This document shows, in pieces, positions 16,801-60,151 of a DNA stretch of 64,000 nt. The stretch is taken from NCBI GenBank assembly GCA_000961655.1, contig LADR01000053.1, forward strand, positions 62,001-126,000, read 5' to 3'. The stretch comes from Desulfatitalea sp. BRH_c12. Lineage in GTDB: Bacteria > Desulfobacterota > Desulfobacteria > Desulfobacterales > Desulfosarcinaceae. The first letter of the stretch is position 1; each line of letters begins with the position of its first letter. A model generated the notes under the pieces. It ran no database searches. It saw only the letters and a list, made by a program, of their open reading frames with translations, and was not told where the DNA came from. A program made the position numbers and the translations under genes.

Positions 16801-17211
16801 ATGATGCGCAAAAGTTGTGATGTCCGCTTGAAAGTCGCTTTTCACGATCTGGATCCCCTGCAGGTGGTCTGGCATGGCAATTATTTGAAATATTTCGATA
16901 TCGCACGGTTTACCCTGTTCGAGTCGGTCGGTGTCGATCTGTATGCTTACATGCTGGAGAAAAAATACACTTTTCCGGTCACCCGTTCCGCGATCAAACA
17001 CATTCAACCCTTGCGGGCCTTTGACGAATTCATCTGCACGGCCACCGTTACGGAGGCCCAGTACAAAATCGGCATGACTTTCGAGATCCGCAAAACGGAT
17101 GGCGGCGTCCTTTGCGCGCGCGGCAACAGCGAGCAACTGGCGGTCCGGTTCCCGGAAATGGTTATGGAGTTCCTGATTCCGGATGACATCCGAAAGGCAC
17201 TTGGATTTTGA
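16801..17211 (+). CDS. 4-hydroxybenzoyl-CoA-thioesterase-type hotdog thioesterase
   Basis: 136 aa, a single hotdog domain. The signature FHDLDPLQVVWHGNYLKYFD (residues 14-33) is the YbgC/4HBT active-site pattern with the catalytic Asp (DLDP). The rest (PVTRSAIKHIQPLRAFDE, GMTFEIRKTDG) is also typical. It hydrolyses acyl-CoA or acyl-ACP thioesters. It is the first gene of the lipid locus on the plus strand and is followed after about 110 nt by the FakA-FakB fusion, so it may release or proofread acyl chains for that enzyme. Confidence 0.85.
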   Translation: MMRKSCDVRLKVAFHDLDPLQVVWHGNYLKYFDIARFTLFESVGVDLYAYMLEKKYTFPVTRSAIKHIQPLRAFDEFICTATVTEAQYKIGMTFEIRKTDGGVLCARGNSEQLAVRFPEMVMEFLIPDDIRKALGF

Positions 17212-17324
17212 TATCCAGTTTGCTTTTTAAGTGCCCTGAATCATCCAGCCTGACAGAATAGCTGTTAAATGAATTCTGTGTTGTGGGTGGCGCTTTTTTC
17301 TCAACACAGCTGCATCGGATCTCA

Positions 17325-19070
17325 ATGGATCGGATTTTCAGTATGGACCGAAACTACGACAGTGCCCTGATTCAGGGCTACGAGCGCATGGCGGCCTGGT
17401 CGGATTTGCTCGATACCATCAATGTCTTTCCCGTGGCCGATGCGGACACCGGGCGCAACCTGAAAATCAGCCTGGCCCCATTGCGCCGGTTGACCAATGA
17501 TCCCAAAACAGTGCCGCATCATTTGATTCGGGCGGCTACCGGCAATTCGGGCAACATCGCGGCCGGTTTTTTTTCGGAACTGTTGGCCGTGCGCACGGGC
17601 GTTCAGCTGCCGGATGCCATCCGTAGCGGCTTGCATAAAGCGCGTCAGGCGGTGGCCGAGCCCAAGGCGGGCACCATGCTGTCTGTTTTTGAAGCCTTGG
17701 CGCTGGCAGCGTCGCAGCAGGATCTGACACCGCCCGGGTGGGATTTGGACACGATCATGCGGCACCTGGAAAAAACGGTCAGCGATACCAGTGTCATTCT
17801 GCCGCAGCTCAAGGCGGCCGGCGTGGTAGACTCAGGCGCGCTGGGGATGTTCATCTTCCTGGAAGGTTTTTTGTGCGGCTTGGCGGGAAAAAGCACCCAC
17901 GGCCGTCCGGTCACCGAAACTTTCCGCGGCAGCCTCAAAATTGCCGATGGCTGGCGGCCCGCCGCCGACATCGATGCTGACGATTACTGCGTCAGCGCCG
18001 TGATTCGGCCCGAGGGCTCCCTGGACCAGGCACGCCAGAGCCTGGAATCCTGCGGAACGAGTCTCGTGGTGACGACGGATGCCGATTGCCTGAAGGTGCA
18101 CCTGCATACCGGCGACCGGAAGGCGCTTAAATCCGATCTGGCGGACATTGGCTGTGTGGTCGGATGGTCCGAGGAGCGCATCGAAACCGTCCAGCCGGAA
18201 CACGCCCCGGCCATCGGCGCCATGCATGTCATGACCGACGCGGCCGGCTCGATCACGGTGGACGATGCCCGTGAACTGGGGATGACCCTGCTGAACAGCT
18301 ACTTGTTGGTCGGTGAGCAGGTGTGCCCCGAAACCCTGTATGCCCCTCAAAAGCTCTACAGCGCCATGTCCGGTGGCACGCGCGTGTCCACCGCCCAGGC
18401 CTCTGCATTCGAGCGGCACCAGTGCTACTTGAGCGCCGTCAGTCGGTTCGATCGCGTGCTCTACCTGTGCGTGGGATCGGTGTATACCGGCAATTACGAC
18501 ACTGCCGTGGCCTGGAAGGCCCAAAACGATCCGGATGACCGCCTGACCATCATCGACACCGGTGCCGCTTCGGGGCGCTTGGGCATCATGGCCCTGGCCG
18601 CAGCGCGGTATGCCCAACGGGTCCGCGACCCGCAAGCTGTGGTGCATTTCGCGCGTGAAGCGGTGGCGCACAGTGGTGAACTGGTCTTTCTGGACCAGCT
18701 TAAATATTTGGCAGCCGGGGGCCGTATTTCCAAAACCAAAGGTTTTTTTGGCGATCTGTTGCACAAGAAGCCCATCATCACGCCCACGGCCCAGGGGGCT
18801 GCCAAAGTGGGCATCGTTCGCAATCGCGGCGAACAACTCGCCTTTGCCCTCGAACGCCTGCAGCACACCTTCGAAAAAACGGCGGCGCCGTTCATTCTGC
18901 TGCAATACTCAGATAATCAGCAATGGGTGGAAGAAACCGCGGCCGCGAGGGTTCGTGCGTTGCTGCCGGCGGCCCGAATCTGGTTCCGTCCGCTTTCATT
19001 AACCTCCGGGGCCCACATGGGACCCGGCACATGGGCGGTGGCCTATCTGCCCGCAACCTTTTACGATTAG
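17325..19070 (+). CDS. FakA-FakB fusion (DAK2 kinase domain plus DegV fatty-acid-binding domain)
   Basis: 581 aa. Residues 1-200 are a DhaL/DAK2 kinase (NVFPVADADTGRN at 33-45 and GNSGNIAAGFFSE). Residues about 215-285 match the FakA middle domain (LKVHLHTGDR). Residues about 300 to the end are a DegV domain (HVMTDAAGSITVDDA, LYLCVGSVYTGNYDTA, LKYLAAGGRISKTKG, KPIITPTAQG). In the Fak system FakB binds a fatty acid and FakA phosphorylates it to acyl-phosphate, the substrate of PlsY. A single chain is unusual. The motif ADADTG in place of PDGDTG is a small change. A longer GTG start at 17283 is possible. Confidence 0.82.
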   Translation: MDRIFSMDRNYDSALIQGYERMAAWSDLLDTINVFPVADADTGRNLKISLAPLRRLTNDPKTVPHHLIRAATGNSGNIAAGFFSELLAVRTGVQLPDAIRSGLHKARQAVAEPKAGTMLSVFEALALAASQQDLTPPGWDLDTIMRHLEKTVSDTSVILPQLKAAGVVDSGALGMFIFLEGFLCGLAGKSTHGRPVTETFRGSLKIADGWRPAADIDADDYCVSAVIRPEGSLDQARQSLESCGTSLVVTTDADCLKVHLHTGDRKALKSDLADIGCVVGWSEERIETVQPEHAPAIGAMHVMTDAAGSITVDDARELGMTLLNSYLLVGEQVCPETLYAPQKLYSAMSGGTRVSTAQASAFERHQCYLSAVSRFDRVLYLCVGSVYTGNYDTAVAWKAQNDPDDRLTIIDTGAASGRLGIMALAAARYAQRVRDPQAVVHFAREAVAHSGELVFLDQLKYLAAGGRISKTKGFFGDLLHKKPIITPTAQGAAKVGIVRNRGEQLAFALERLQHTFEKTAAPFILLQYSDNQQWVEETAAARVRALLPAARIWFRPLSLTSGAHMGPGTWAVAYLPATFYD

Positions 19071-19154
19071 AACCCTTTATCGGAAACAGTCACCCTGAAC
19101 GTGTACATTTTTCACTCACCTTTCAGCTCCGGCGAGGCCGGTAAGGAAGACAAC

Positions 19155-19457
19155 ATGCACTCATTCAAGAACTGGACTTGGCTTGTCGTGGTCATCATAG
19201 GGATCAGTTTGACCGGTTGCGCCTATGTGCATACCAAAACCCCCTTTGATACGAACCTCAACAATACCGATCTGGGAACCAAAGTGGGCATCGCCGAAAC
19301 CCGCAGCGTCTTGTGGCTCGTGGCCTGGGGCGATGCCAGCTACGAGGCGGCTGCGCGCAACGGCGATATCAAGGTGCTCAAACATGCGGACCAGGAAACA
19401 TTCCAGGTCCTGCTTGGTCTATATACCCGCATTCGCGTCATCGTCTATGGGGATTGA
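19155..19457 (+). CDS. TRL-like lipoprotein 1
   Basis: 100 aa with AAGGAAG before ATG. A type II signal with the lipobox LTGC at residues 17-20 marks an outer-membrane or periplasmic lipoprotein. The rest is a TRL-type fold (NLNNTDLGTKVGIAETRSVLWLVAWGDASYEAAARNG), named after the tRNA-linked gene family. A paralogue follows directly. Confidence 0.8.
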   Translation: MHSFKNWTWLVVVIIGISLTGCAYVHTKTPFDTNLNNTDLGTKVGIAETRSVLWLVAWGDASYEAAARNGDIKVLKHADQETFQVLLGLYTRIRVIVYGD

Positions 19458-19460
19458 TCC

Positions 19461-19826
19461 ATGAAAACCTCCACACAGCGTTGCCCCTCTGTGCGCCGGG
19501 TGCTGTTTTCAGGTGCGATCTGTGCGTTTCTGGCGCTCAGCGCATGCGCCCCCCGGCCGATCGGATTGATTTACACGAATATACGGCTGCCGCTGACCAA
19601 GGATCTGGATAACACACCCGTTGCCAGCCGGCTGCCCGATAGTGGGCGGGTCTTCGAAGTGAAGGAACCCTTCAGCGGGGTCGGCATCTATGCCAGGGTC
19701 AACTCCAATGCCCTCGGCGACATCGCCAAACACAACGGCATGCGGACCCTTTATTTTGCCGACCAGCAGATTTTCAGTGTCCTGGGGGTCTACAAAGTTA
19801 ACAAGACGATTCTGTATGGTGAATGA
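19461..19826 (+). CDS. TRL-like lipoprotein 2
   Basis: 121 aa, 3 nt after lipoprotein 1. Lipobox LSAC (residues 26-29) after a hydrophobic stretch. It keeps the TRL pattern (IGLIYTNIRLPLTKDL, then GDIAKHNGMRTLYFADQQIF) but is divergent from its neighbour. Its stop overlaps the start of the GT2 gene (ATGA), so the pair is cotranslated with it. Confidence 0.78.
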   Translation: MKTSTQRCPSVRRVLFSGAICAFLALSACAPRPIGLIYTNIRLPLTKDLDNTPVASRLPDSGRVFEVKEPFSGVGIYARVNSNALGDIAKHNGMRTLYFADQQIFSVLGVYKVNKTILYGE

Positions 19827-20548
19827 TGGCCCTCGACCCCGGCGATAAAGGGCGATTTGCCGTCATCATTCCGGTGTTCAATCATGGGCGCACGGTGCAG
19901 GATGTCGTGCGCGCCGCCCTGGATCTGGCACTGCCGGTCTACGTGGTGGATGACGGATCCACCGACGGCGGTGTTCCGATGGTTCCGGCCTTTCCGGGCG
20001 TGCACCATCTGCGGCATGCCGTCAACCGCGGCAAGGGCGCCGCTCTGCTGACCGGTTTCCGGCAAGCCGCGCGCGTGGCCGACTGGGCCATCAGCCTGGA
20101 TGCCGACGGCCAGCACGCCCCGCAGGATGCGCTGAGCCTGATGCGGGCAATCGCGCCAGGAACGCGGCCGGTCGTCGTCGGGTGCAGGCAGCACATGCAG
20201 GCCCAAGGCGCCCCCTGGACCAGCCGATCCGGCCGGGCGTTTTCCAATTTCTGGGTTCGGACCGCCGGCGGCCCGCGTGTTTGCGACAGCCAGAGCGGGA
20301 TGCGCATCTACCCGTTGCCCGAGGTGCTGCACTTGGGTGTCCAGGCCATGCGCTATCAGTTCGAGGTGGAAGTCCTCGTCCGCGCGGCCTGGCAGGGCTT
20401 GCCGGTCATCGAAGCGCCGATTCGCGTGACCTACCAGTCCAAGGAGGAACGCATTTCGCATTTCCGGCCGTTTGCGGATTTCGTGCGCAATTCGACCACC
20501 TTCACGCGGTTGATTGTGCGGCGGATTTTCGGGGGGCCGTGGCGGTAA
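19823..20548 (+). CDS. family 2 glycosyltransferase (ApeJ-like)
   Basis: 241 aa with a short GT-A domain. FAVIIPVFNHGRTVQDVV (residues 12-29) is the usual N-terminal nucleotide-sugar motif, with VVDDGSTDGG (about 47) and DADGQHAP (about 95) supplying the acidic metal ligands. No membrane segment is clear. It overlaps the lipoprotein gene by four bases and precedes the LpxL-like acyltransferase, as GT2 does in aryl polyene clusters. Likely sugar or lipid headgroup transfer. Confidence 0.85.
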   Translation: MMALDPGDKGRFAVIIPVFNHGRTVQDVVRAALDLALPVYVVDDGSTDGGVPMVPAFPGVHHLRHAVNRGKGAALLTGFRQAARVADWAISLDADGQHAPQDALSLMRAIAPGTRPVVVGCRQHMQAQGAPWTSRSGRAFSNFWVRTAGGPRVCDSQSGMRIYPLPEVLHLGVQAMRYQFEVEVLVRAAWQGLPVIEAPIRVTYQSKEERISHFRPFADFVRNSTTFTRLIVRRIFGGPWR

Positions 20549-20592
20549 GGTACGTAAAAGCGTCCAACATAGAGAGGTGAACATATCAATCG

Positions 20593-20657
20593 ACAGAATG
20601 CCTCCCTTTACACTTTAAACTTTACACTTAACACTTCGCCAATAGTCACTTGAGCGA
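20593..20657 (-). repeat. 63-bp dispersed repeat, copy a
   Basis: The minus strand of this copy reads TTCGCTCA, then GAAGTGTTAAGTGTAAAGTT and ends GGCATTCTGT. The plus-strand copy at 28682-28744 is nearly identical over the whole length. It lies upstream of the LpxL-like gene. Confidence 0.7.
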
Positions 20658-20724
20658 ACAGCATAACCAAATTGAATTACTTGTAAAATATTGCCCACAG
20701 CCAGCGGGCAACGGAACAACGGAC

Positions 20725-21633
20725 ATGCGCAAACGTTTCTACATCATCCTGACAGCGCTCTCCAACATGTTGGGCAGTTGGTTTTTCGCGTGGTCCGCGC
20801 GGGTTATTGCGGCCGGTTATTACGTGCTGTTTCCGAGCCGCACGCTGGCCAGCGTGCGTTTTTACCGGGCGCTGTTTCCCGGACGCGGCCGTCTGTACCC
20901 GTTCGGGTGCGCCTGGCGCCAGTTTCAGAATTTCACGTCGGTTTTTCTGGACCGCTTCCTCGTGCAGGACAGCAGTGCCGTCAGTTACACCTTCGAGGGC
21001 CGCGACCACCTCTTGCACGCGCTGCGGCACGGCAGCGGCGGTATTTTGCTCATGTCCCACATCGGTAACTGGGAAGTCGGTGCGCGCCTGCTCAAGAAGA
21101 GCACATCCGATCTGCGCCTGATGCTGTACATGGGCCGCCGCGCGCGCGATCAGATTGAACGGCTGCAAAAAGACGATTTGACCGCCGATGGCATCCGCAT
21201 CGTCGCGGTGGATCAGAACGGCGGATCGCCCTTGGAGCTTGTCGAAGGTGTCGGCTTTATCAAATCAGGCGGTTTTGTCTCCATGGCCGGTGATATGGTT
21301 TGGCACCCCGGGCAACGGTCCGTGGCGGCACGTTTTCTGGGGCACCGGGTGATGCTGCCGGAAGCGCCGTTCATGCTCGCGATGGTGACCGGTGCGCCCT
21401 TGTATGTGTTTTTCGCCGCGCGTACCGCCGCGCGCCAGTATCATTTCACCTTGTCAGCCCCCGTCGCCGTGCGGGCCGACACCCGTGCCCAACGCCGGGA
21501 GGCCGTCCGGCAAGCGGCTCAGGCCTATGTCGATCAGATCGAGCGCCATTTGCGGCGCTCGCCGTTCGAATGGTATCATTTCAGTCCCTTTTTGGGGCCG
21601 GCCATCGACGAGGAGGTATCGGACGCTGTTTAA
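20725..21633 (+). CDS. LpxL/HtrB-family lipid acyltransferase
   Basis: 302 aa from ATG; a TTG start 25 codons upstream is possible and neither has a strong Shine-Dalgarno. Membrane-associated N-terminus, then the catalytic HxxxxE motif in LLMSHIGNWEVGARLL (His at about 113) and downstream GDMVW and FFAARTA. LpxL enzymes use acyl-ACP to acylate lipid A or other lipids; in aryl polyene loci the ApeD-type homologue attaches the chain. Here it precedes the ACP gene, so an ACP-bound product as donor is likely. Confidence 0.85.
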   Translation: MRKRFYIILTALSNMLGSWFFAWSARVIAAGYYVLFPSRTLASVRFYRALFPGRGRLYPFGCAWRQFQNFTSVFLDRFLVQDSSAVSYTFEGRDHLLHALRHGSGGILLMSHIGNWEVGARLLKKSTSDLRLMLYMGRRARDQIERLQKDDLTADGIRIVAVDQNGGSPLELVEGVGFIKSGGFVSMAGDMVWHPGQRSVAARFLGHRVMLPEAPFMLAMVTGAPLYVFFAARTAARQYHFTLSAPVAVRADTRAQRREAVRQAAQAYVDQIERHLRRSPFEWYHFSPFLGPAIDEEVSDAV

Positions 21634-21705
21634 AAACCCTTTGAATCCACCGCTTTTTGTAGTAGAACCCAAGGACTTCAAATAGGAACGAGGATATGCA
21701 TCGGT

Positions 21706-21960
21706 ATGACCCGAGATGAGATCTGCAGTAGAATATTAGCGATATTTTCGGAAAAATTCGAGATCGACAACCCCGGCCTGGACGATGATTTACGCGAAGA
21801 GCACGAGTTCGACAGCATCGATGCCATCGAACTGCTGCGCGAAATCGAGGTGATGCTTGACAGTCAATTGACCCAGGAAGAAAAAAAATCGGCCATGACC
21901 ATCCGTACGATCAACGATATCGTTGCGTACGTCATCGACATGGCGGCTGTCAGAGCCTGA
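21706..21960 (+). CDS. acyl carrier protein 1
   Basis: 84 aa, four helices. The phosphopantetheine-binding Ser is Ser37 in EFDSIDAIELL. Acidic composition and length fit a free-standing carrier of type II FAS or PKS. It lies between the acyltransferase and ketosynthase genes (16 nt to the latter's start), so it is likely the carrier used by both. The phosphopantetheinyl transferase domain at 51731-53266 is a candidate for its activation. Confidence 0.9.
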   Translation: MTRDEICSRILAIFSEKFEIDNPGLDDDLREEHEFDSIDAIELLREIEVMLDSQLTQEEKKSAMTIRTINDIVAYVIDMAAVRA

Positions 21961-21976
21961 CGTTCAGCGGGGTATT

Positions 21977-23215
21977 ATGGATCGAAGAGTTGTGATCACC
22001 GGGTGCGCGGCCATTACGCCGATCGGCAATACCAAAGCCGAGATGGTAAGGCATTTGACACAGGGGATATCGGGCGTCAAGGCCATGCGAAGTGACGGAT
22101 TGCTCACCGAGCAGATCCACTCCGGCGTTTTCGGAACGGTCGACTATCCCATCGATTATGCATTCAACCGCCATCACCGCAAGACCATGGGGCCGGTGGC
22201 CTATTACGCCTGCCAGGTGGCCAAGGAGGCGCTGGACGGCGCCGGCCTGGAAGAGGCGTTCGTCACCTCGGGACGCATGGGCGTGGCCTTCGGGTCGACC
22301 CACGGCAGCCCCACTGTTCAGCGCGAGATATACCGCACCTTTTTTGGGCAGAGCGAGCAAAAGCTGCGCAATATCGGGGCCGTGGATTATCTCAAATCCA
22401 TGGTACACACCACGGCGGTGAATATCACCAAAATGTTCGGCATCACGGGCCGGGTGATTTCCTCGTCGACCGCCTGCACCACCAGCAGCCAATCCATCGG
22501 GTATGGGTACGAGGCCGTCAAGTTCGGACTGCAGGATGCCATGTTATGCGGCGGCGCGGACGAATACGACACCACCACGGTCGCGGTGTTCGATAACCTG
22601 CTGGCCTGTTCGACCGCTTTCAACGCCACCCCGCATTTGACCCCGCGGCCCTTCGATGTGCGCCGCGATGGGCTGGTCGTCGGAGAAGGCGCCGGGGCCG
22701 TTGTCCTGGAGGAGTATGAAAGGGCCCGGCGACGCGGGGCCGTTATTCTGGGCGAGGTGCTGGGGTTTGCCTGCAACAACAACGGCGGCGACATGATTCT
22801 GCCCAACATGAACGGGATCGAGCAAACCCTGCGCCTGGGTCTCGACAGTGCGCAGATCGGCCCCGATCGGGTCGATCTGATCAGCGCCCATGCCACCGCC
22901 ACCAAGATGGGCGACGTGATCGAGGCGCAGGCCATTGGCAAGGTCTACGGCACCGGGCCGCTGGTCACCGGTCTGAAAAGCTACATGGGCCATACCATGG
23001 GGTCGTGCGGCGTTATCGAAACCATACTGGCGCTGCACATGATGCACGAAAGGTTTGTGGCCCCCACCTTGCATTTGGACGACGTGGATGAACGCTGCGC
23101 CATGATCCGGCACGCCCGCCAATTGACTGAAACCGCCGTGCAGGTCGCGGCGATCGAGAATTTCGCCTTTGGCGGCGTCAATACAAGCCTGATTATCCGG
23201 AAACCGCTGGAATGA
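21977..23215 (+). CDS. beta-ketoacyl-ACP synthase 1 (FabF/ApeO-like)
   Basis: 412 aa from ATG. The catalytic triad is complete: Cys167 in SSSTACTTSSQS, His305 in SAHATATKMGD and His339 in SYMGHTMGSCG. It should condense malonyl-ACP with an acyl-ACP. It overlaps the next gene by four bases (ATGA), which implies translational coupling with PlsC. It is one of four ketosynthase units in the locus. Confidence 0.93.
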   Translation: MDRRVVITGCAAITPIGNTKAEMVRHLTQGISGVKAMRSDGLLTEQIHSGVFGTVDYPIDYAFNRHHRKTMGPVAYYACQVAKEALDGAGLEEAFVTSGRMGVAFGSTHGSPTVQREIYRTFFGQSEQKLRNIGAVDYLKSMVHTTAVNITKMFGITGRVISSSTACTTSSQSIGYGYEAVKFGLQDAMLCGGADEYDTTTVAVFDNLLACSTAFNATPHLTPRPFDVRRDGLVVGEGAGAVVLEEYERARRRGAVILGEVLGFACNNNGGDMILPNMNGIEQTLRLGLDSAQIGPDRVDLISAHATATKMGDVIEAQAIGKVYGTGPLVTGLKSYMGHTMGSCGVIETILALHMMHERFVAPTLHLDDVDERCAMIRHARQLTETAVQVAAIENFAFGGVNTSLIIRKPLE

Positions 23216-24024: not shown

Positions 24025-24102
24025 AGAAAGAGTTAAGACGTTCTGTCTGTTTGACAGGTTGCGGGTCTGTTTTTGATCGATAATCCGATTGAGAGGAGTA
24101 AG

Positions 24103-27178: not shown

Positions 27179-27515
27179 CCACTATACCTTGCTGAAATCA
27201 CAATGCCCTCGTAACAGCGTTTCCATTGCACATTGCCCACATGCAATGCAATCGGTAAATATCTGCATCTATCTGCATATCTCAACTTTCCGGATGAACG
27301 CTCGGCCAGTCGCCGGTGCTCCCGTGCACGTAAAAATTATAATTTGGTTATGCAGTTCGCTCCAGTGCTCTCACAGCCCACCACCGGAATGGCCGATGGC
27401 GAGCAAATGCGTACATGGTTGACTTTGCCGGCAAAAACAATACTATCCAGCGACTTTTTACAGCGGCTGCGATTTCTTTCCGAGAGCGCGCCGTCAAACA
27501 GAATGGACCTGAATT
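27179..27515. other. divergent intergenic region, nothing recognised
   Basis: 337 nt between the kinase and the RNA methyltransferase genes. It must carry promoters for both; no clear motif is seen. Confidence 0.35.
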
Positions 27516-28664: not shown

Positions 28665-28681
28665 AGTTTTCTTTATGCACT

Positions 28682-47551: not shown

Positions 47552-47566
47552 TGTGAGGAGTGCTGA

Positions 47567-49981: not shown

Positions 49982-50005
49982 CGATAGGGAAAAACATATT
50001 TAGCT

Positions 50006-51271: not shown

Positions 51272-51272
51272 C

Positions 51273-53266: not shown

Positions 53267-53267
53267 C

Positions 53268-53867
53268 TTGAAAAATTTGGACTTATTCGCCGATCCCGCG
53301 CACATCGCGGTCTTTTTTATCGGACTGCTCGCCGCCTATCTGGCTGGTTCGGTCAACTTCTCGATCTTTTTGTTCCGGGTATTGGGCAAAGGGGATCCGC
53401 GCTCTCAGTTCAGCGGCAATCCTGGCGTTACAAACGTCTATCGGCAGGCGGGTTGGGCGTTGGCCGCCCTGGTGCTGGTGCTGGACGTAGGGCGCGCGGC
53501 GGCCGTGGCCCTGCTTGCTCAAACGTTCTGGGCGGACCCGCTGGTACCCTGGGCCGGTTTCGGACTGATCCTGGGCAACCACTTTCCCTGTCTGCATGGG
53601 TTCAAGGGGGGCAAGGGGGTGGCCAACTTTCTGGGGTTTTATGCTGTTCTGGTGCCGGTAGGCGCGCTTTGGGCGCTGGGCGCCTATCTTGCGGTGTTCG
53701 CCATGGCGCGCATACCGTTTATCGCATCGTTCGGAATGCTGGCCGTGTTAACGGGTTTCGGCATCCTGCGCTGGCAGTCCGACCCCGTGGGCATCGCAGG
53801 CATCGTCATCACGGCCGGCTGCATCGTCTGGTTTCACCGGGGGAATATAAGTGCGTTGATGCGTTAA
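53268..53867 (+). CDS. PlsY-like glycerol-3-phosphate acyltransferase
   Basis: 199 aa from TTG. Membrane protein with about six helices and the three PlsY motifs: GSVNFSIFLFRVLGKGD (about 21-37), SGNPGVTNVYRQAGW, and GNHFPCLHGFKGGKGVANF. PlsY takes an acyl group from acyl-phosphate to glycerol-3-phosphate. A dedicated copy at the end of the synthase operon suggests that the product is placed on glycerolipid. Works with acyl-phosphate from the FakA-FakB fusion (inference). Confidence 0.87.
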   Translation: MKNLDLFADPAHIAVFFIGLLAAYLAGSVNFSIFLFRVLGKGDPRSQFSGNPGVTNVYRQAGWALAALVLVLDVGRAAAVALLAQTFWADPLVPWAGFGLILGNHFPCLHGFKGGKGVANFLGFYAVLVPVGALWALGAYLAVFAMARIPFIASFGMLAVLTGFGILRWQSDPVGIAGIVITAGCIVWFHRGNISALMR

Positions 53868-53906: not shown

Positions 53907-55007
53907 TTACCCGCAACGCAATTGGGTTTGGAACAGGCGCTGGTTGTGCCAGCAGAGTGGATCGGATGCAAGGGGGTCACCGGTAATCTGAAAGGCGGCG
54001 CCTCTGCACCCATAACATTCATCCGCGCGCTCGCAGTCATGGCAATGGCCCTTGATGGTCTGGCGGTGGTTTTTCAGATCTCTCAGCAACTGACTCTCGG
54101 CCAAGATGGCGGCCAGGGGTTTTTGCCGGATGTTGCCAAGGGAAAGCGTCACTCCCACGCAGGGTCGGACCTCGCCTTGGGCGGTCACTAAGCAGGAGAA
54201 CTTGTGCCGCATGCATTTGTTGCCTACCAGCGGCGGTTGAACGTCCCAGGTCTGACCGAACAGGTGCTTGTCCAGATCGGCGATGGTGGTGAAAAAAGTT
54301 TCAAGTTCGAGCGGCTCTACGAAGAGCCATTCGTTTAATCGCGCATTGGCCTGAGGCGTGATGATTTCAAAATAGGGTGCGATTCCCTGCTCGCGCAGCC
54401 ACTGCCACATGCGCGGCAGTTCGCCGATATTCTGGCGGCAGATAATCGAACTGACGGCCAGAAAATGCGTCTGAGAGGGGTACCCGGCCGCTTTGAGATG
54501 GCCAAGGGCCGACTGGATGATGCGGAAGGCGCCCGGATGACCGGAGAGCTCGTTCTGCAGGACCGCATCGAAAGAGTTCATCTTCATCACAACCCGCACC
54601 TGCTGCTCGTAAAGCTGACGGGCGAAATCGGCCGTAATGCCCGACCCGTTGGTAAACATCTCCACAATCAGGCCGTGTCCCCGCATGAAACGGATCATCT
54701 CGAGGGTGTGTGGATAAATGGAAGGTTCGCCGCCCAGAACAATAATTTTGACGGCACCCAGGGCTTTGGCCTGCAGGATGGCGTCGCGGATTTCGTCCAG
54801 GGACAGTTCGTCTTTGAGCTGATCTTCGTGCGGCACGTAACAATAGGGGCATCTGAAGTTGCAGCGCAGGCTGAATTCAATCTCCATGGAGAGCAGTCGG
54901 CCTTTACGGACCGCCTCGGCAATAGCTTCTTTAGAGAATTCGAAATTGGTAATTGGAGCAGGATGTCTGTTCACAGGGCTATTCAATCGATCCGAAATGG
55001 GTGGCAA
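53907..55007 (-). CDS. radical SAM/SPASM-type enzyme G
   Basis: 366 aa. Cluster CNFRCPYC (Cys49, Cys53, Cys56), LGGEPSIYP, and a C-terminal SPASM-like Cys pattern (CVGVTLSLGN, then CHDCERADECYGCRGA). This is the common form of SPASM maturases and of the MoaA-like group. It is convergent with the PlsY-like gene and closes the cluster. It may act on a peptide or on a small substrate of the pathway; no partner peptide is seen. Confidence 0.87.
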   Translation of the reverse strand: MPPISDRLNSPVNRHPAPITNFEFSKEAIAEAVRKGRLLSMEIEFSLRCNFRCPYCYVPHEDQLKDELSLDEIRDAILQAKALGAVKIIVLGGEPSIYPHTLEMIRFMRGHGLIVEMFTNGSGITADFARQLYEQQVRVVMKMNSFDAVLQNELSGHPGAFRIIQSALGHLKAAGYPSQTHFLAVSSIICRQNIGELPRMWQWLREQGIAPYFEIITPQANARLNEWLFVEPLELETFFTTIADLDKHLFGQTWDVQPPLVGNKCMRHKFSCLVTAQGEVRPCVGVTLSLGNIRQKPLAAILAESQLLRDLKNHRQTIKGHCHDCERADECYGCRGAAFQITGDPLASDPLCWHNQRLFQTQLRCG

Positions 55008-55584: not shown

Positions 55585-55965
55585 ATGCTCATTTTGGTTG
55601 TGGATGACTCGATGGTTGCGCGGAATATCCTCAAAAACGTCCTCGAGCCCATGGGGCATGAGGTCATTGAGGCTTCCAACGGGCGAGAGGCCCTGAAAAT
55701 TTTGGAAAAGCTGGCCAAAGAGGTCGGTTGTGTGCTGCTGGACTGGAATATGCCCGTCATGAATGGTTTTGAAACCCTGCAGGCGATTCGAAGCGACAAG
55801 GACTGCGGTCATATTTTGATTCTGATGGTTTCTACGGAGTCGGAAGATGAGTTTATCGAGCGTGCGATTGCGGCCGGCGCGAACGGCTATCTGGCCAAGC
55901 CCTTTTCGGCTGAGGAGTTGAAGGCCAAAATGGCCGACATTCTCAAAGCGGCTAAGCCCAGGTAA
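55585..55965 (+). CDS. cheY: CheY-like single-domain response regulator
   Basis: 126 aa, a stand-alone receiver: VVDDS, phospho-acceptor Asp53 in LLDWNMP, VSTES and the Lys in YLAKPF. No output domain. It is the first of three signal genes ending in a kinase, and may be the target of the phosphatase-like protein next to it. Confidence 0.92.
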   Translation: MLILVVDDSMVARNILKNVLEPMGHEVIEASNGREALKILEKLAKEVGCVLLDWNMPVMNGFETLQAIRSDKDCGHILILMVSTESEDEFIERAIAAGANGYLAKPFSAEELKAKMADILKAAKPR

Positions 55966-56044
55966 GTGCAAAATGCCGCATCTCGGATTCCGCATACGTT
56001 TTCGCCATGCACCCCGGGGAAGGGCCCCTCATCGGAGATGAATA

Positions 56045-56890
56045 ATGAACAAAATAGTGCTTATAGATTGCAGTTCGGAAGTCACCAGTGCTTTGGCGGA
56101 ATTGTTGGGTGAGCAATGCAGCCTGTCGAATATTTCGTCCGAGGACCGGATTGTTCCTGAAGAGAACAGGATGATCGTCTTGGAAGCCGATGCCAGCCCG
56201 GATGCGATCTACTTGAAAATCTCCAGAATCCGGGCGGCCTGCAAATTCAAAGACATTCCCATTATCGTGATCAAGCGACGTGAAGATCGGATTCCCCTCG
56301 AACATTTTCTCAGCTCGGGGGCCACCGAAGTGCTGTCCCTGGATGCCCCTCCGGGAGCCTGCCGGCAGATTCTGCGAGGGCACCTGATTCCCAACCGCAA
56401 GCCGTTGGAAAAAGAGATGGCTTATCTTGTGCCTTTCATCGAAAACACCGTGCAGGTGCTCAAAACAACGGCTTCGCTGGAAGTGGCTTTTCGTGAAGTG
56501 TATTTTTCAAATACCTTCAGAATTTTCGGAGACATCTCAGGCATTATCGGGCTCTCCGGTGAATCCGAAGGAACAGTAGCTGTCACGCTATATTGGCGCC
56601 TGGCGCGAAATATTATCGCAAGGATGATGAATGTGCAGGAAGAGCGGATCAACGCCGAGTATATTCACGATGGGGTCGGCGAACTGATCAATGTGATCAG
56701 TGGCAGCACCAAAAAGAGATTCAAAGGAACGCCTTTTCACTTTGAATTATCGCTGCCGACGGTCGTGGTGGGCTCGGGCCACCAATTGGGACACCCGGAA
56801 GGATCGAGCATTGCCGTGCTGATCTTCGATGTCGATGATTCGGCTTTCGTGCTCCAGGTGTGTCTCAAACCCAAAAAGCATCTCATCTGA
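56045..56890 (+). CDS. pseudo-receiver plus CheX-type phosphatase domain
   Basis: 281 aa. The first 120 residues look like a receiver fold but lack the acidic pocket and phospho-acceptor. The second half (about 130-281) is a CheX domain with the catalytic E..N pair in VGELINVISG, so it could dephosphorylate a CheY-like protein. It lies between the CheY gene and a receiver-PilZ kinase, both possible partners. Confidence 0.75.
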   Translation: MNKIVLIDCSSEVTSALAELLGEQCSLSNISSEDRIVPEENRMIVLEADASPDAIYLKISRIRAACKFKDIPIIVIKRREDRIPLEHFLSSGATEVLSLDAPPGACRQILRGHLIPNRKPLEKEMAYLVPFIENTVQVLKTTASLEVAFREVYFSNTFRIFGDISGIIGLSGESEGTVAVTLYWRLARNIIARMMNVQEERINAEYIHDGVGELINVISGSTKKRFKGTPFHFELSLPTVVVGSGHQLGHPEGSSIAVLIFDVDDSAFVLQVCLKPKKHLI

Positions 56891-56913
56891 CGCATAGCTA
56901 TAGATACGCCGCC

Positions 56914-58683
56914 ATGTCTGAAAAGATCATTCTTTTAATCAACCGGGACAGTGCGTTTCTCGCGCATACGGCAGAAACCCTGCGCCTGGCCGGCTATCGT
57001 ACCCATACGGCCATGGATATGCGCGGCGCTTTATCCGTGCTTTCCAGCGAGCGCACTGGTTTGATTATCTGTGATAAAACCTTGCAGGATGTCAGTGGAT
57101 ACGATTTGTTGAATTTCATCAAAAAGGATCCGTTGCGCGATTGTATTCCCTTCATGTTCCTGGTGTCGGCCAAGGAGCAGGGGCACGCCTTAAAAGCTTT
57201 CGAGATGGGTGCTCTCGATTTTTTGGTGTATCCGTTGGCGCCGGAACTCCTGGTCGAGCGTGTCGATGAGGTTTTCGAAACCACTCGGAAATCCGATCCG
57301 CCCGTGGCCCATCCACCAGTAGCCGAACCACCAGTGACCGAACCGCCGGCGCCGGTGCATCCGCACGATAACGGCAGCACAGATGAGGCGACCGTTGTGG
57401 CCGTGCGCCGCGTCGATATCTCCCGGGATGGGGTGATCTGGCTGCCGGGCAAGGTCGGTAAGTTTCGCGGCAGCACGCTTTTTGTCGAAACCGCTCTGTT
57501 TGGAAAGCCGGGCGTTACTTTGATGATGCGTTTCCAGCTGGATGACGGCATCTTCGTCCTCAATGGTCATATCAAAGATATTCGCTACGACGATTTTCAA
57601 AAACCGGCCTGGATAGAAATGGTGGTCCGGGAGGATGAAGCCTGGCATCGCATCCATCGCTATCTTCAGGACAATACCGGCATGCCCTCCGCGGAACCGG
57701 CACAGACCCCTGATGATACTTTTTTACTCCATCCTGGCGCGCTCGAAAAGACGGCTTTCCGCACCGGCCCCATGGAATCGGTGGAAGTCCGCGATCCTTC
57801 GTACGATCAGCGTTTTTATCACAGTTTGATCGGCAAACAGCTGGATAATTACAGGGCGATTACCCTGATCGGTTCGGGCAGTATGGGGGGTGTGATGCAG
57901 GGCTGGGATGTGGCTCTGGAGCGTGAAGTGGCTTTGAAGGTCATCTCCTATGAGCTTTCATCCAAGGAAAAATTTCGTGAAATGTTCATCAAGGAGGCCC
58001 GCGTGGTCTCCCGGCTGAATCACCTCAATATTGCTCAGATTTACTACATCGGTACCAGCAACGATATCTTCTATTACGCAATGGAGTTTGTCGACGGCAA
58101 AACCCTCAAGGAACTGATCGATCAAGAAAGCCGGCTGAATGTGCTCAAGGGGCTGGAATATTTGATTACGGTGTGCGAGGCGCTTTATTATGTGCACCAG
58201 AATAGCATTGTCCATCGGGACATCAAGCCGGCCAATATCATGATCAACACAGCGGGTCTCATCAAGGTCGTGGATTTCGGGGTGGCCAAAACGAGTGATT
58301 CGAAAACCAAAGGCGAAAAAAGCATGATTATCGGTTCGCCTCTGTATATGTCGCCCGAGCAGATAGCCGGCCTCACGCTGGATTACCGCAGTGATATATA
58401 TTCCTTAGGGGCGACCTTTTATCACGCGCTTACCGGATCGCCGCCCTTCGAAGCCGATGACTACAAGGATATCATGGCGCAGCATATTGCAAGGCCGCTG
58501 CCGCCCATGAAAGAAAAAAATCCGCGGATTCCGACCCCATTGGCGGCCATCATAGAAAAGATGATGGCCAAGGACCCTTTCGATCGCTACAAGGATTGTC
58601 AGACGATCGCAAACGAACTCAAATCTTTGCAGACCCGTATTCTAAAACGGTTGCGTCAGAGTTCGGAAGAGAAAGCAGGCTGA
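56914..58683 (+). CDS. receiver-PilZ-Ser/Thr protein kinase
   Basis: 589 aa. Receiver (1-125; phosphorylation site Asp in IICDKTLQDVSG), a Pro-rich linker with repeats of PPVAEPP, a PilZ-like region (about 160-245; RRVDISRDG, a c-di-GMP binding type of motif) and a eukaryotic-type kinase: glycine loop IGSGSMGGV, catalytic HRDIKPAN and DFGVAK. The C-terminus ends soon after the kinase. It links a two-component input and c-di-GMP to Ser/Thr phosphorylation; targets unknown. Confidence 0.87.
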   Translation: MSEKIILLINRDSAFLAHTAETLRLAGYRTHTAMDMRGALSVLSSERTGLIICDKTLQDVSGYDLLNFIKKDPLRDCIPFMFLVSAKEQGHALKAFEMGALDFLVYPLAPELLVERVDEVFETTRKSDPPVAHPPVAEPPVTEPPAPVHPHDNGSTDEATVVAVRRVDISRDGVIWLPGKVGKFRGSTLFVETALFGKPGVTLMMRFQLDDGIFVLNGHIKDIRYDDFQKPAWIEMVVREDEAWHRIHRYLQDNTGMPSAEPAQTPDDTFLLHPGALEKTAFRTGPMESVEVRDPSYDQRFYHSLIGKQLDNYRAITLIGSGSMGGVMQGWDVALEREVALKVISYELSSKEKFREMFIKEARVVSRLNHLNIAQIYYIGTSNDIFYYAMEFVDGKTLKELIDQESRLNVLKGLEYLITVCEALYYVHQNSIVHRDIKPANIMINTAGLIKVVDFGVAKTSDSKTKGEKSMIIGSPLYMSPEQIAGLTLDYRSDIYSLGATFYHALTGSPPFEADDYKDIMAQHIARPLPPMKEKNPRIPTPLAAIIEKMMAKDPFDRYKDCQTIANELKSLQTRILKRLRQSSEEKAG

Positions 58684-58753
58684 ACCATTGACACGTTCCT
58701 GACGTCACTATAAAGTGCTGTCCTTAAAGTCCTGACGCTCAGTGGAGATGGAA

Positions 58754-60151
58754 ATGTTGGTTACAGTGGATGAGACCCGGCGTGCGATCGGTTGCGGAAT
58801 CGACAGTGATTTGGAACGATGGATCCAACGGCTTCTTGCAGGTCCAGGCGATTCTCGCAAAGCATTTGTTCCCAATAGGGCCAGTTTCGGCGATTTGTAC
58901 GCAATGGCCGCGGATCTCGGTGCGTATTTCCGAACACACGTCACAGAACCCTTTGTGTGTTTGTGCGCCGAAGACAAAGCGGTCGTGGGTGCCGCCCTTT
59001 TGGCATCCATGGCCGGTGGTCCGGCCCTGATCGTGCCGTATAGCCTGAATGCGTCTGTTCTGGCCGAACTGCAACAATGGACCGGCTACAACCATGCCAT
59101 CGTGGACGGCACCCGGCCGGTGCCGGCGGGCGTCCATTGCGTTGAACCGAGACCTGCCGGAAACGCCTGGTTGGCCGGTGGGGCGTCCCCCAGGCAGCCG
59201 CAGACAGAATGGGTTCGGGTGTTCACTGGCGGTAGCACGGGTGCGCCTAAGATGTGGACCAAGACGGTGCGCAACCTGTTGGCCGAAACGATCGCTATCA
59301 TCGGCCATTACCAAGTCGACGCGCAGGATCGCCTGCTGGCCACCGTCAGTCCCAACCACATCTACGGGCTGCTTTATTCGGTTCTGGTACCAATGCTGGC
59401 CTCGGCCTCGGTGGCGGCTCCGACGCCGTCGTTTCCCGGTGAAATCGAAAGTGCGGCGCGCCTCCACGAGGCCACCCTCCTCATCAGCGTGCCGGCGCAT
59501 TATCGGGCCTTGAACGGCCATTCGTTTGCCAAATCGTCCTTGCGCCTGGCGTTTTCATCGGCCGGCATGCTGGCCGCCGAAGATGCGGCCGCCTTCAGCG
59601 CACAGACCGGCGTGGGGATAGCCGAAATTTACGGTTCCACTGAAACCGGCGGCATTGCGGCGCGGGTCAGGGCTGCGGGAGAAGTCGATTTCAAGCCATA
59701 CGCCAACATCTCTGTAAAGATCGTGGGCGAGCGGCTCAATGTGCGTTCCGACTATCTTTCGCCCGGCCTGGCGATGCAGGCGGACGGCTATTTTTGCATC
59801 GGCGATCGTGTGGCATCCACGCCGGGCGGTCGTTTCGAGCTGCTCGGACGTGCCGATGGCATCGTGAAGGTCGGCGGTCGGCGGGTCGATCTGGAAATGG
59901 TACGCCAGGCGCTTAAAAAGCTGCCCGCGGTGCGCGAGGCGGTGGCCGTGTCCCTGCCTGTTAACAATGGGCGGCAGAATCAAATCGTGGCTGTTGTCGA
60001 AGGGCCCATGGGATCTGCCGCTGTGAATCGCATGCTGCTGGAGGGCCTGGAACCGTACGCGCGGCCGCGCAGCATCCGCGTCGTCGACAAAATCCCGTTG
60101 ACTGCGGCCGGTAAATTCGACCGTAAAACCATTGTGGGACTTTTCAGTTAG
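58754..60151 (+). CDS. acyl-AMP ligase (ApeH-like)
   Basis: 465 aa from the ATG at 58754 that has GGAG six nt upstream (two other in-frame starts are upstream). Motifs: TGGSTGAPKMW (about 167-177), YGSTETGG (about 300), GRADGIVKVGGRRVDLE and the catalytic Lys in TAAGKFDRK near the end. This small class of AMP ligases loads a carboxylic acid on a carrier protein, as ApeH loads 4-hydroxybenzoate in aryl polyene synthesis. It lies 4.9 kb from the synthase operon, after signal genes, but is the best candidate for starter loading. Confidence 0.83.
   Translation: MLVTVDETRRAIGCGIDSDLERWIQRLLAGPGDSRKAFVPNRASFGDLYAMAADLGAYFRTHVTEPFVCLCAEDKAVVGAALLASMAGGPALIVPYSLNASVLAELQQWTGYNHAIVDGTRPVPAGVHCVEPRPAGNAWLAGGASPRQPQTEWVRVFTGGSTGAPKMWTKTVRNLLAETIAIIGHYQVDAQDRLLATVSPNHIYGLLYSVLVPMLASASVAAPTPSFPGEIESAARLHEATLLISVPAHYRALNGHSFAKSSLRLAFSSAGMLAAEDAAAFSAQTGVGIAEIYGSTETGGIAARVRAAGEVDFKPYANISVKIVGERLNVRSDYLSPGLAMQADGYFCIGDRVASTPGGRFELLGRADGIVKVGGRRVDLEMVRQALKKLPAVREAVAVSLPVNNGRQNQIVAVVEGPMGSAAVNRMLLEGLEPYARPRSIRVVDKIPLTAAGKFDRKTIVGLFS

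Follow-up and report, generated by a model that had tools for sequence, protein, structure and literature searches.

In E. coli, according to the accessible part of PMC8253772, deletion mutants in most of the core and transport genes no longer formed the aryl polyene pigment, ApeLMN are proposed to serve export, and ApeB is the likely methylase of the polyene head group. It should be noted that ApeB is a different kind of methylase from the B12 radical SAM enzymes. Ladderane-type clusters, for their part, have already been published in Desulfobacterota (PMC2649909, accessible part; PMC9902471). Here, we compared both systems with a locus of the sulfate reducer Desulfatitalea sp. BRH_c12 (GCA_000961655.1, contig LADR01000053.1, positions 62,001–126,000, forward strand) that unites machinery resembling that of aryl polyene pigments with radical enzymes of a type suspected in anammox ladderane synthesis. 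Coordinates are positions in this 64,000-nt stretch (the window), of which 16801–60151 was the span studied.

The E. coli reference consisted of the 18 genes apeA–R of strain CFT073, and the anammox reference of G612 C1:209–234 kb, a stretch whose Kuste numbering derives from the gene order in PMC4790861 rather than from Kuenenia sequences. Synteny was considered in seven relatives. A survey of the radical SAM gene g39 kept 80 named loci, all chosen by the presence of g39, and counts refer to the 35 loci of at least 19.9 kb. From the same phylum, we included two ladderane-type loci that resemble the D. psychrophila type (G318 and G205; 20 and 13.7 kb fetched) and four aryl-polyene-like loci (G032, G340, G251 and G257; 20–35 kb fetched).

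Gene content of the locus

Gene assignments rest on Pfam and NCBIfam scans together with a search for the CxxxCxxC motif, and other evidence is given in brackets.

g13, 16801–17211, +: 4HBT thioesterase (Pfam 4HBT_2)
g14, 17283–19070, +: DAK2-DegV fusion, fatty-acid-kinase-like FakA+FakB (Pfam Dak2, FakA-like_M, DegV)
g17, 19823–20548, +: GT2 glycosyltransferase
g18, 20650–21633, +: LpxL-type acyltransferase (25% to the C-part of ApeJ)
g19, 21706–21960, +: ACP (ApeF homologue)
g20, 21923–23215, +: ApeR-type ketosynthase (39% to ApeR), true start probably about 21977
g21, 23212–24024, +: PlsC-type acyltransferase (ApeD homologue)
g22, 24073–25587, +: B12-binding radical SAM protein (CTRTCNFC)
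g26, 31104–31928, −: NodB-like carbohydrate deacetylase (NodB 122 bits, below the cut-off of 240)
g27, 32051–35116, −: MMPL exporter fused to a methyltransferase domain
g27b, 35117–35821, −: GT25-like glycosyltransferase, immediately upstream of g27 (Pfam GT25, E 3e-7, short stretch)
g28, 36059–37498, +: B12-binding radical SAM protein
g29, 37678–38961, −: B12-binding radical SAM protein (CRYHCFPC)
g30, 39081–39731, −: lipoprotein with DUF3261-like domain, putative LolB-like ApeN role (PF11659, below cut-off)
g31, 39728–40396, −: LolA-type carrier (28% to ApeL)
g32, 40380–41222, −: FabG/ApeQ ketoreductase (44% to ApeQ, 44% to FabG)
g33, 41851–42117, +: ACP, ORF opening at 41443
g34, 42114–44270, +: fused ApeO-type ketosynthase and ApeC-type chain-length factor (37% to ApeO)
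g35, 44267–45619, +: B12 radical SAM protein, TIGR04072 rSAM_ladder_B12 (419 bits, cut-off 360), Kuste3342 homologue
g36, 45700–46062, +: ApeI/FabZ-type dehydratase (ApeI homologue)
g37, 46089–46370, +: ACP
g38, 46454–47551, +: radical SAM protein, pair member 1 (CNIRCEGC)
g39, 47567–48565, +: radical SAM protein, pair member 2 (CNLRCKGC)
g40, 48731–49981, +: FabF-like ketosynthase, paired with g41 (Cys-His-Lys-His retained)
g41, 50006–51271, +: FabF-like ketosynthase (Cys-His-Lys-His retained)
g42, 51273–51752, +: 4HBT thioesterase (31% to ApeK)
g43, 51653–53266, +: polyketide-type dehydratase fused to phosphopantetheinyl transferase (Pfam PS-DH, ACPS), start uncertain as the ORF overlaps g42
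g44, 53178–53867, +: PlsY-type acyltransferase, true start probably later
g45, 53907–55007, −: radical SAM/SPASM protein, Kuste3343 homologue (43% to the G612 gene)
g49, 58742–60151, +: AMP-dependent acyl ligase, ApeH-like (26% to ApeH)

All seven radical SAM genes of the original prediction, four of B12 type (24073, 36059, 37678, 44267) and three others (46454, 47567, 53907), were recovered with their CxxxCxxC motifs, as were the ACPs, KS-CLF, FabG, AMP ligase, GT2, LpxL-type, MMPL and LolA genes, three extra ketosynthases (21923, 48731, 50006) and the PlsC and PlsY enzymes (23212 and 53178). Some entries had to be amended: the single thioesterase is in fact two (16801, 51273), the methyltransferase is present as the C-terminal domain of the MMPL protein, and the second of the two dehydratases (45700, 51653) is the one fused to a phosphopantetheinyl transferase. 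The predicted DUF3261 domain of g30 scores 17.9 bits against a Pfam cut-off of 22.3, with 5 of 18 family members matching at E ≤ 0.1 (best 5.7e-5), and Cys16 is invariant across 18 aligned sequences. The GT25-like gene g27b was missing from the earlier gene list. The ORF of g28 opens at 35288, its 5′ part lying antisense to g27b.

Among the synthase genes, g20 scores 264 bits against ApeR and 188 against FabF and retains Cys-His-Lys-His, while g33, whose homology begins at ORF residue 130–137 in 5/7 relatives, scores 58 bits against ApeE and 28 against AcpP. The first half of g34 is nearer to ApeO than to FabF, and about equally close to ApeO (174–197 bits) and to two anammox ketosynthases (155–189 bits). 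The second half best matches ApeC (37 bits, 30%), with Asp replacing Cys, and the fusion was seen in 13/13 sequences aligned, out of 19 strong matches. By sequence comparison, the resemblance of g40/g41 is not aryl-polyene-like. In g38, five further Cys are retained in 77/77 aligned sequences, and 153 of 332 columns of g39, which has a radical SAM fold (Z up to 17.8), are invariant over 81 sequences; the Pfam and NCBIfam scans gave no B12 domain match for either protein. For g14, the NCBIfam DegV match lies above the cut-off and those of YloV/FakA/FakB1 below it. No aryl-starter supply gene was recognised in the locus, nor any enoyl-reductase Pfam family except for the SDR match of the FabG protein g32.

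Conservation of the locus

The genes at 37678–53266 recur in 7/7 relatives, and this core is also kept in two purple sulfur bacteria, Allochromatium and Thiorhodococcus, where even the gene order of the eight-gene kernel g36–g43 (45700–53266) is unchanged. The kernel, including both g38 and g39, is present in 35/35 full-length loci, all of which were selected by g39; for g43, several relatives match the dehydratase part only. Invariance does not extend to the polyene synthase. As g34 lies within 10 kb of the kernel in 23/35 loci and g35 in 27/35, a different acyl chain may be the substrate of the kernel.

Around the kernel, conservation is graded. While g29 is found at 74–88% in 7/7 relatives and g49 in 6/7, five of the seven carry g26 (19/35 named loci), full-length g27 (24/35), g27b (25/35) and 64–76% homologues of g13, which g14 adjoins in 5/7. 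Counts are lower for g44 (4/7 relatives, 7/35 loci), g45 (3/7) and full-length g28 (1/7). The genes might have proved to be scattered unrelated operons in relatives, and one coherent locus was found instead. The idea that 16801–60151 forms one set holds for this locus, but probably not for 25607–31075 and 55585–58683, which mostly lack conservation alongside the cluster in the seven relatives; an exception is the RlmL-like gene at 27516–28664, which in G002 has a 67% homologue lying about 1 kb away from g22.

PF04055 matches in 24073–55007 number 5 of the genome's 48, where 0.25 would be expected (Poisson P ~6e-6), a count that omits two of the seven radical SAM genes as too divergent for the model. 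Co-location is expected anyway for genes of one pathway.

Comparison with aryl polyene and ladderane clusters

Homologues of 13 of the 18 E. coli aryl polyene products are found in the locus, a fourteenth (DUF3261) being matched weakly. The shared set comprises ApeR, ApeO, ApeC, ApeQ, ApeI, ApeE/F, ApeD, ApeH, ApeJ, ApeK (29% to g13), ApeL and ApeM, the GT2, ligase and acyltransferase matches being given with no control against housekeeping relatives. The predicted aryl-polyene likeness extends to synthase and transport genes. ApeJ is split into a GT2 gene (g17, 36% to its N-part) and an acyltransferase gene, KS and CLF are fused, the DUF3261-like protein would fill the ApeN role (among export genes, ApeL and ApeM are matched and the ApeN counterpart lies below the Pfam cut-off), and the methyltransferase domain is fused to MMPL and is not an ApeB match. 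ApeP, ApeG, ApeB and ApeA have no match in the locus; for ApeP, blastp and phmmer gave none at E ≤ 0.01, nor did hhalign against the g43 family, a weak test with a single-sequence template. In addition, the locus contains seven radical SAM genes, a second KS pair, the PKS-type dehydratase with PPTase, and PlsY, GT25-like and deacetylase genes. The lack of an ammonia lyase, noted in the original prediction, is little informative because the annotated 18-gene E. coli cluster is without one too. For flexirubin/DAR, two matches fall below cut-off, an FlxB-like reductase at 289 bits (cut-off 340) and LolA2_flexi, the best NCBIfam model for g31, at 96 bits (cut-off 125), these being single-model scores rather than a gene-by-gene cluster comparison.

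The link to ladderane clusters exists and is closer than had been claimed, two of the radical SAM genes being homologous to Kuste3342/3343. With the anammox locus (kuste3335–3352), the Desulfatitalea locus shares the TIGR04072 B12 radical SAM (35% to g35), the SPASM protein (g45) and another B12 radical SAM (30% to g29), as well as KS, Cys-less KS, ACP, AMP ligase, GT2 (33% to g17), MMPL, LolA, LpxL, PlsC and deacetylase genes. Since LolA, MMPL, GT2 and LpxL also occur there, the transport genes fail to separate the two kinds of cluster: their ape homology stands, but not their use as a distinction from ladderane clusters. The G612 stretch, in turn, is without g38/g39, the fused KS-CLF and a best match to g40/g41/g43, and contains a phytoene-desaturase-like flavoprotein and stand-alone methyltransferases, both of which the Desulfatitalea locus is without. 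Domain scans found no phytoene-desaturase-like gene in the locus, and the genome's sole match (E ≤ 0.001) to the anammox protein lies on another contig (32%).

Gene order in G612 is largely that of kuste3335–3351, from which the Desulfatitalea locus differs, whereas in G318 and G205 it is retained across the fetched parts. These two share with Desulfatitalea the phylum and the TIGR04072 and SPASM genes, are collinear with the anammox locus at 29–62%, and show no g36–g43 match in 20 and 13.7 kb. The aryl-polyene-like loci carry g29 at 59–62%, g28 at 41–47% (G340, G251, G257) and g35 at 36–37% in three, the G251 gene being nearer to the anammox protein (35%). ApeR/ApeQ/ApeK/LolA/MMPL/GT2 homologues occur in most; G032, G340 and G251 encode KS and CLF in separate genes, unlike the fused g34, and there is no g38/g39 match in the 20–35 kb fetched. 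In a midpoint-rooted tree of g35, the Desulfatitalea type forms a separate 100/100 clade with the aryl-polyene-like loci as its sister group, outside the anammox-locus clade. This sister type, aryl-polyene-like with ladderane-type radical SAM genes, fits the predicted remodelling. Judged by these comparisons, three kinds of locus form a series in the phylum: the anammox-like kind, the aryl-polyene-like kind equipped with ladderane-type radical SAM genes, and the Desulfatitalea type. The last fits neither family because of its fused KS-CLF, its strongly conserved radical SAM pair at 46454–48565, which none of the compared stretches (aryl polyene, anammox and anammox-like) contains, and the missing phytoene-desaturase-like gene. 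In agreement with a separate pathway, it exactly matches neither the E. coli cluster nor the anammox locus compared.

Proposed pathway and alternatives

From gene content, homology, synteny and catalytic residues, we lean towards an anaerobic type II PKS/FAS pathway dedicated to making an outer-membrane lipid, a polyene remodelled by radical chemistry. The most likely route would lead from an ACP-bound polyene acyl chain through radical remodelling and glyco- or glycerolipid coupling to outer-membrane export. By homology, the AMP ligase and ApeR-type ketosynthase would begin the chain, the fused ApeO-ApeC-type KS/CLF would elongate it on the cluster ACPs, and FabG and two dehydratases would process it to an ACP-bound polyene. 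We propose that the double bonds stay, as the locus contains no recognised enoyl reductase, although one encoded at another site of the genome might act on the chain. The radical SAM enzymes, above all g38/g39 with g35 and g29, may then remodel the chain by C–C bond formation (ring closure) and/or C-methylation, and the second ketosynthase pair g40/g41 may lengthen it by a further stretch. Thioesterases would free the acid, which could be re-activated via the fatty-acid-kinase-like fusion and PlsY/PlsC and LpxL-type enzymes and coupled to a head group of glycerol or sugar (GT2, GT25-like, deacetylase). MMPL, LolA and DUF3261-like proteins, by homology to ApeLMN, would deliver the lipid to the outer membrane.

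Methylases are numerous among the B12 radical SAM enzymes characterised so far, and it is conceivable, though doubtful, that those of the locus branch an aryl-polyene-like chain into a C-methylated, glycosylated polyene with no ring. Indeed, g22 and g28 match the HpnR and HpnJ models, albeit far below cut-off; a further sub-cut-off match of both is to the oxidative cyclase model BchE, g38/g39, as the radical SAM pair with the highest conservation, shows no B12 domain match, and the TIGR04072 lineage is shared with ladderane-candidate loci. Rather unlikely is an anaerobic PUFA or hydrocarbon pathway (e.g. C31:9), in which the FAS part makes a polyunsaturated chain, double bonds are set or shifted by the radical SAM enzymes, no rings form and the chain enters phospholipid or is converted to hydrocarbon. 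The kernel's FabA-like and PKS-type dehydratases would suit it, and for Desulfotalea psychrophila, where a related cluster occurs, the accessible part of Rattray 2009 (PMC2649909) reports the hydrocarbons C31:8 and C31:9 but no ladderanes and proposes anaerobic PUFA synthesis. That cluster, however, has phytoene-desaturase-like genes, of which none was recognised in the Desulfatitalea locus, and the glycosyltransferases, deacetylase and outer-membrane transport genes suggest a decorated, exported lipid.

We consider it improbable that 16801–25587, the core and the ligase seem one pathway through proximity only. Foreign genes do lie in between, the full block 16801–25587 (g13–g22) is near the core in only 4/7 relatives, some being without it, and no more than 2–4 of 35 loci have g18–g22 at 10 kb or less from the kernel. 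Nonetheless, the interposed genes mostly differ among relatives while block, core and ligase recur together, and g45 and parts of g18–g22 adjoin the kernel again in L052, L059 and L088. True ladderanes or other cyclobutane lipids in sulfate reducers are very improbable products: g35 and g45 are homologous to Kuste3342/3343, and g29, MMPL, LolA, deacetylase, GT2, LpxL and AMP ligase have anammox counterparts, but g35 falls outside the anammox-locus clade, g38/g39 are absent from the anammox loci compared, the Desulfatitalea locus has neither the phytoene-desaturase-like gene nor stand-alone methyltransferases, and D. psychrophila had no ladderanes detected in that same accessible account.

Within the favoured reading of a radically remodelled outer-membrane polyene lipid, we tentatively suggest that g38/g39 might be a new two-protein radical SAM system joining carbons of the ACP-bound polyene, and that these clusters might make an unknown class of ring-bearing outer-membrane glycolipids in anaerobes. 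To our knowledge, no chemistry has been established for these families of radical SAM proteins. If true, aryl polyene, Desulfatitalea-type and ladderane-type clusters would be stages of one family, and cultured non-anammox members would offer a workable system for ladderane-like ring chemistry; as cultured relatives carry the cluster, this chemistry is open to testing. Across 297 genomes of the phylum, TIGR04072 matched at 1e-70 in 21/21 g39-positive genomes versus 94/276 others, kinship being uncorrected.

Gene content of the locus and its conservation in close relatives

The stretch analyzed covers positions 62001-126000 of contig 82 in a 6.0-Mb genome. Pfam and NCBIfam scans of its open reading frames, together with a motif search, bore out the originally predicted gene list, including its seven radical SAM genes, although several entries needed correction. 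The thioesterase is present but is not the only one; the methyltransferase exists as a domain fused to the MMPL exporter rather than as a separate gene; and the second dehydratase carries a fused phosphopantetheinyl transferase. A GT25-like gene adjoining the exporter had been overlooked. The features on which the analysis centers are:

37678-53266, core of the locus, genes g29 to g43
45700-53266, kernel within the core, genes g36 to g43
46454-47551, g38, radical SAM gene
47567-48565, g39, radical SAM gene paired with g38
51273-51752, second thioesterase gene
35117-35821, minus strand, g27b, GT25-like gene

Two further readings were rejected. An apparent N-terminal domain on g28 is antisense to the conserved g27b, and the stops that might have pointed to selenocysteine or recoding in g29 are ordinary terminal ones, plus one TAG in genome G037. 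This in-frame TAG lies at codon 10 of the g29 homologue (L040, 14010-15644), where the others have Trp.

To judge whether the genes belong together, we compared 40-60 kb around the fused ketosynthase-chain length factor (KS-CLF) gene, g34, in seven relatives that carry it on a long contig (the G003 region was fetched as 40 kb only and is cut). The locus behaves as one unit in these relatives, with g29 to g43 matched in all seven. Around this core, ligase g49 was matched in six relatives, the deacetylase and MMPL genes in five, PlsY in four, the SPASM radical SAM gene g45 in three and full-length g28 in one, while block A (g13-g22) was matched in five for g13-g14 and in four for the rest, g17-g22. 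The KS-CLF gene itself was found (E ≤ 1e-150) in 11/11 genus genomes, though some have just a fragment of it at the end of a contig.

The segment at 25607-31075, between block A and the core, holds a histidine kinase, an RlmL-like methyltransferase (27516-28664) with a close counterpart adjoining g22 in G002, and an ABC-F protein. Between g45 and the AMP ligase, at 55585-58683, lie a response regulator, a CheX-like protein and a receiver-Ser/Thr kinase. These signaling genes, the histidine kinase and the ABC-F protein are without close counterpart at the loci of the seven relatives. Two neighboring small lipoprotein-like reading frames at 19101-19826, the first of the TRL family, are kept only in G002 among the seven.

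At the edge of the locus, g12 (12974-16123, minus strand) encodes a 1049-residue protein without Pfam match that is 66-76% identical in the ten other genus members. It occurs in 35/60 relatives, many of them without a strong KS-CLF match, and shares a contig with the core, at a distance of up to about 31 kb, in five of the 11 genus genomes (G000, G001, G002, G003 and G008). It adjoins g13 in G002 and lies 14 kb from a related locus in G032; in the remaining genomes compared, it lies far off or on a different contig. Owing to this wide occurrence and frequent distance from the core, g12 was left out of the cluster, to which it could nonetheless be linked to some degree.

The radical SAM pair and its kernel among anaerobes

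The two proteins of the pair, g38 and g39, share 29% identity. The three radical SAM cysteines are kept in 97% of 77 aligned g38 sequences and in 100% of 81 aligned g39 sequences, and five further cysteines are kept in 100% of both alignments, which suggests that the proteins bind an auxiliary iron-sulfur cluster. Of the 332 columns of the g39 alignment, 153 are invariant among the 81 sequences. The g39 model (pLDDT 81, with the C-terminal cysteine region poorly modeled) has a radical SAM fold, with its best match to SkfB (Z 17.8), followed by many SPASM-type proteins. Matches to SkfB, SuiB, BlsE, anSME and viperin at Z of about 15-18 point to radical SAM/SPASM proteins in general and indicate no specific reaction; GDGT-MAS, a radical SAM enzyme that joins lipids, reaches only Z 13.

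Scanning named genomes with the g39 alignment gave at least 266 relatives, of which the best 80 were used. Among these, 35 loci are full, each of at least 19.9 kb, and were scored within 10-kb flanks using our own bit-score thresholds. All 35 contain the kernel, which comprises a dehydratase, an ACP, the two radical SAM proteins, two ketosynthases, a thioesterase and a dehydratase. As at least five of these loci (L045, L049, L070, L072 and L084) are also among the seven relatives, the 7/7 and 35/35 counts are not independent. Within 10 kb of the kernel in the 35 loci, we found the B12 radical SAM gene g35 (27 loci), FabG g32 (26), MMPL g27 (24), KS-CLF g34 (23) and g29 (23). When all of the best 80 loci are counted, many of them truncated, g38 has a match in every one, g36 in 72 and g43 in 58.

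Two purple sulfur bacteria, Allochromatium palmeri and Thiorhodococcus mannitoliphagus, present the order g29 to g43, then g27 and g26, with g27b probably between them, as an antisense match implies. This suggests transfer; g39 was found in only these two of 116 genomes searched in the A. palmeri family.

In a phylum sample of 297 genomes, 21, including the window's own, carry g39 at 69% identity or more over full length; the next-best matches are g38 paralogues (25-31%), one match of 36% over half the length, and otherwise short or weak ones. G141 holds two full-length copies (C330 and C183; 73-74%). A Planctomycetota MAG, NIOZ-UU13 (L119), has kernel genes (g39 at 80%) on a contig of 5.8 kb, reflecting either transfer or misbinning. 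Ten planctomycete genomes (2.3-5.9 Mb) have a g39-like gene whose neighbors include no further gene of the window cluster. Four planctomycete genomes (G540, G379, G512 and G412; L150-L153; 56-70% GC at the locus) have a near full-length g39 homologue at 30-33%, with no such neighbor found.

Relation to aryl polyene and ladderane clusters

For aryl polyene clusters, the 18 genes of the E. coli CFT073 cluster served as reference (blastp and phmmer, E ≤ 0.01), lettered as in excerpts of PMC8253772. Thirteen were matched (ApeR, Q, O, M, L, K, J, I, H, F, E, D and C), and the DUF3261-like g30 is, at lower confidence, a fourteenth homologue: hhalign against a single E. coli DUF3261 protein gave a probability of 1.4, and the Pfam model later matched weakly. 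ApeP, ApeG, ApeA and ApeB are without match in the locus by the same searches; g27 has a methyltransferase domain, but does not match ApeB. Nothing was matched when g43 was compared with ApeP and ApeI by hhalign.

Bit-score controls covered g20, g34N (the ketosynthase half of g34), g33, g32, g40 and g41, so that the GT2, ligase, thioesterase and acyltransferase matches stand outside them. Ketosynthase g20 scores 264 bits to ApeR versus 188 to FabF, and g34N 174-197 bits to ApeO, 149-157 to FabF and 155-189 to two anammox ketosynthases. ACP g33 scores 58 bits to ApeE, 53 to an anammox ACP and 28 to AcpP, and g32 is as near to FabG as to ApeQ. Ketosynthases g40 and g41 resemble each other and FabF more than they do the aryl polyene enzymes. 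The Cys, His, Lys and His residues are kept in g20, g34N, g40 and g41, and the second half of g34 is a CLF with Asp replacing the catalytic Cys. PDB sequence searches with g37, g36, g27, g40, g41 and g34 returned general fatty acid synthase relatives; 6qsp, which we take to be ApeO, ranks second for g34. The locus was not classed as an aryl polyene cluster, because ApeP and ApeG are missing from the matches, the DUF3261 match is weak, and an aryl starter and polyene product would be predictions.

Hydrazine synthase alpha (PF18582) is present in seven of the ten planctomycete genomes with a g39-like gene, and these seven were thus taken as anammox; two of the seven, G612 and G688, are the only ones of the ten with TIGR04072, the family of g35, above cut-off. 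The G612 locus (C1:209-234 kb) runs from LpxL, LolA, a VTT protein, radical SAM/SPASM, B12 radical SAM, ATP-grasp and deacetylase through ketosynthases, methyltransferase, AMP ligase, radical SAM/SPASM, the TIGR04072 protein, ACP and a FabA-like protein to methyltransferase, MMPL, an amine-oxidase-type flavoprotein, GT2 and a PlsC-like protein. This order agrees with the kuste3335-3351 list in excerpts of PMC4790861, save FabG (3341) and one ACP (3350), which were not found in the G612 stretch. Window g35 and g45 are 35% and 43% identical to the G612 neighbors corresponding, by gene order, to Kuste3342 and Kuste3343. A further gene there has 30% identity to window g29, and no g38, g39 or g42-g43 is among the matches listed (tblastn E ≤ 1e-3, best per place). 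The locus was not filed as a ladderane cluster either, because defining features of such clusters were looked for in it and not found. The TIGR04072-like proteins of G612, G507, G724 and G732 (L167, L171-L173) group in a separate clade (100/100) that does not include the ladderane-locus protein, and no other genes of a lipid cluster were recognized beside them.

In the phylum sample, TIGR04072 was found at 1e-70 in 115/297 genomes (63 above cut-off), and in all 21 g39 carriers versus 94 of 276 non-carriers (Fisher 6.6e-10, kinship ignored); in G316, G190 and G141 the two genes are on different contigs. Seven TIGR04072 loci were compared. Those of G318 and G205 show collinearity with the anammox locus at 29-62% identity. 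The loci of G032, G340, G251 and G257 resemble aryl polyene clusters and contain g29 (59-62%) and a g35 relative, three of them also g28; none has a g38/g39 match. The G271 locus is mixed and was left unclassified. In a g35 tree of 36 rows (19 of the 48 available window-type rows, 13 others, the window g35 and three outgroups, rooted for drawing only), window-type g35 forms a clade with 100/100 support that is joined to the G032-type clade at 99/95, and the G612/G688 and G318/G205 rows stand apart from both. Homologues of the ladderane-candidate radical SAM proteins thus occur in aryl-polyene-type clusters too. Within one phylum, aryl-polyene-like and ladderane-type clusters appear to form a series, and the strongly conserved radical SAM pair marks a third type, whose carriers include two purple sulfur bacteria and cultured sulfate reducers such as Desulfatitalea alkaliphila and Desulfosarcina widdelii. 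As these carriers can be grown, extracted and perhaps mutated, the effect of such radical SAM enzymes on a polyene becomes testable.

Published record and proposed pathway

Rattray 2009 (excerpts of PMC2649909) reported the K. stuttgartiensis clusters, synteny between them and Desulfotalea psychrophila, and the C31 polyunsaturated hydrocarbons of that bacterium. According to excerpts of PMC4790861, no new fatty acids appeared when the anammox candidates were expressed in E. coli. A Cariaco Basin study (excerpts of PMC9902471) reported antiSMASH 'ladderane' clusters of unknown function in Desulfobacterota and other phyla, some of which could be of the window type. No description of the g36-g43 kernel or the g38/g39 pair was found among the papers listed in literature searches that covered few subscription journals.

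In the pathway that we propose, an ApeO/ApeC-type ketosynthase and two dehydratases would make an ACP-bound polyene. A polyene is inferred from these families together with the finding that no enoyl reductase was recognized in the locus, although housekeeping reductases encoded elsewhere could still act on the chain. That there are two sets of ketosynthases suggests elongation in two phases. PlsY enzymes use acyl phosphate, and g14, which fuses fatty-acid-kinase-like domains, adjoins a thioesterase gene in a locus that also holds PlsY; this suggests a route by which a free acid would enter a glycerolipid through g14 and PlsY. Against such a route, PlsY lies within 10 kb of the kernel in only 7 and g14 in only 1 of the 35 full loci among the best 80 of at least 266. 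Judging from the GT2, GT25-like and NodB-like genes, the head group would be a sugar, and the MMPL, LolA and DUF3261-like proteins may transport the lipid, by analogy with the ApeLMN model proposed in excerpts of PMC8253772.
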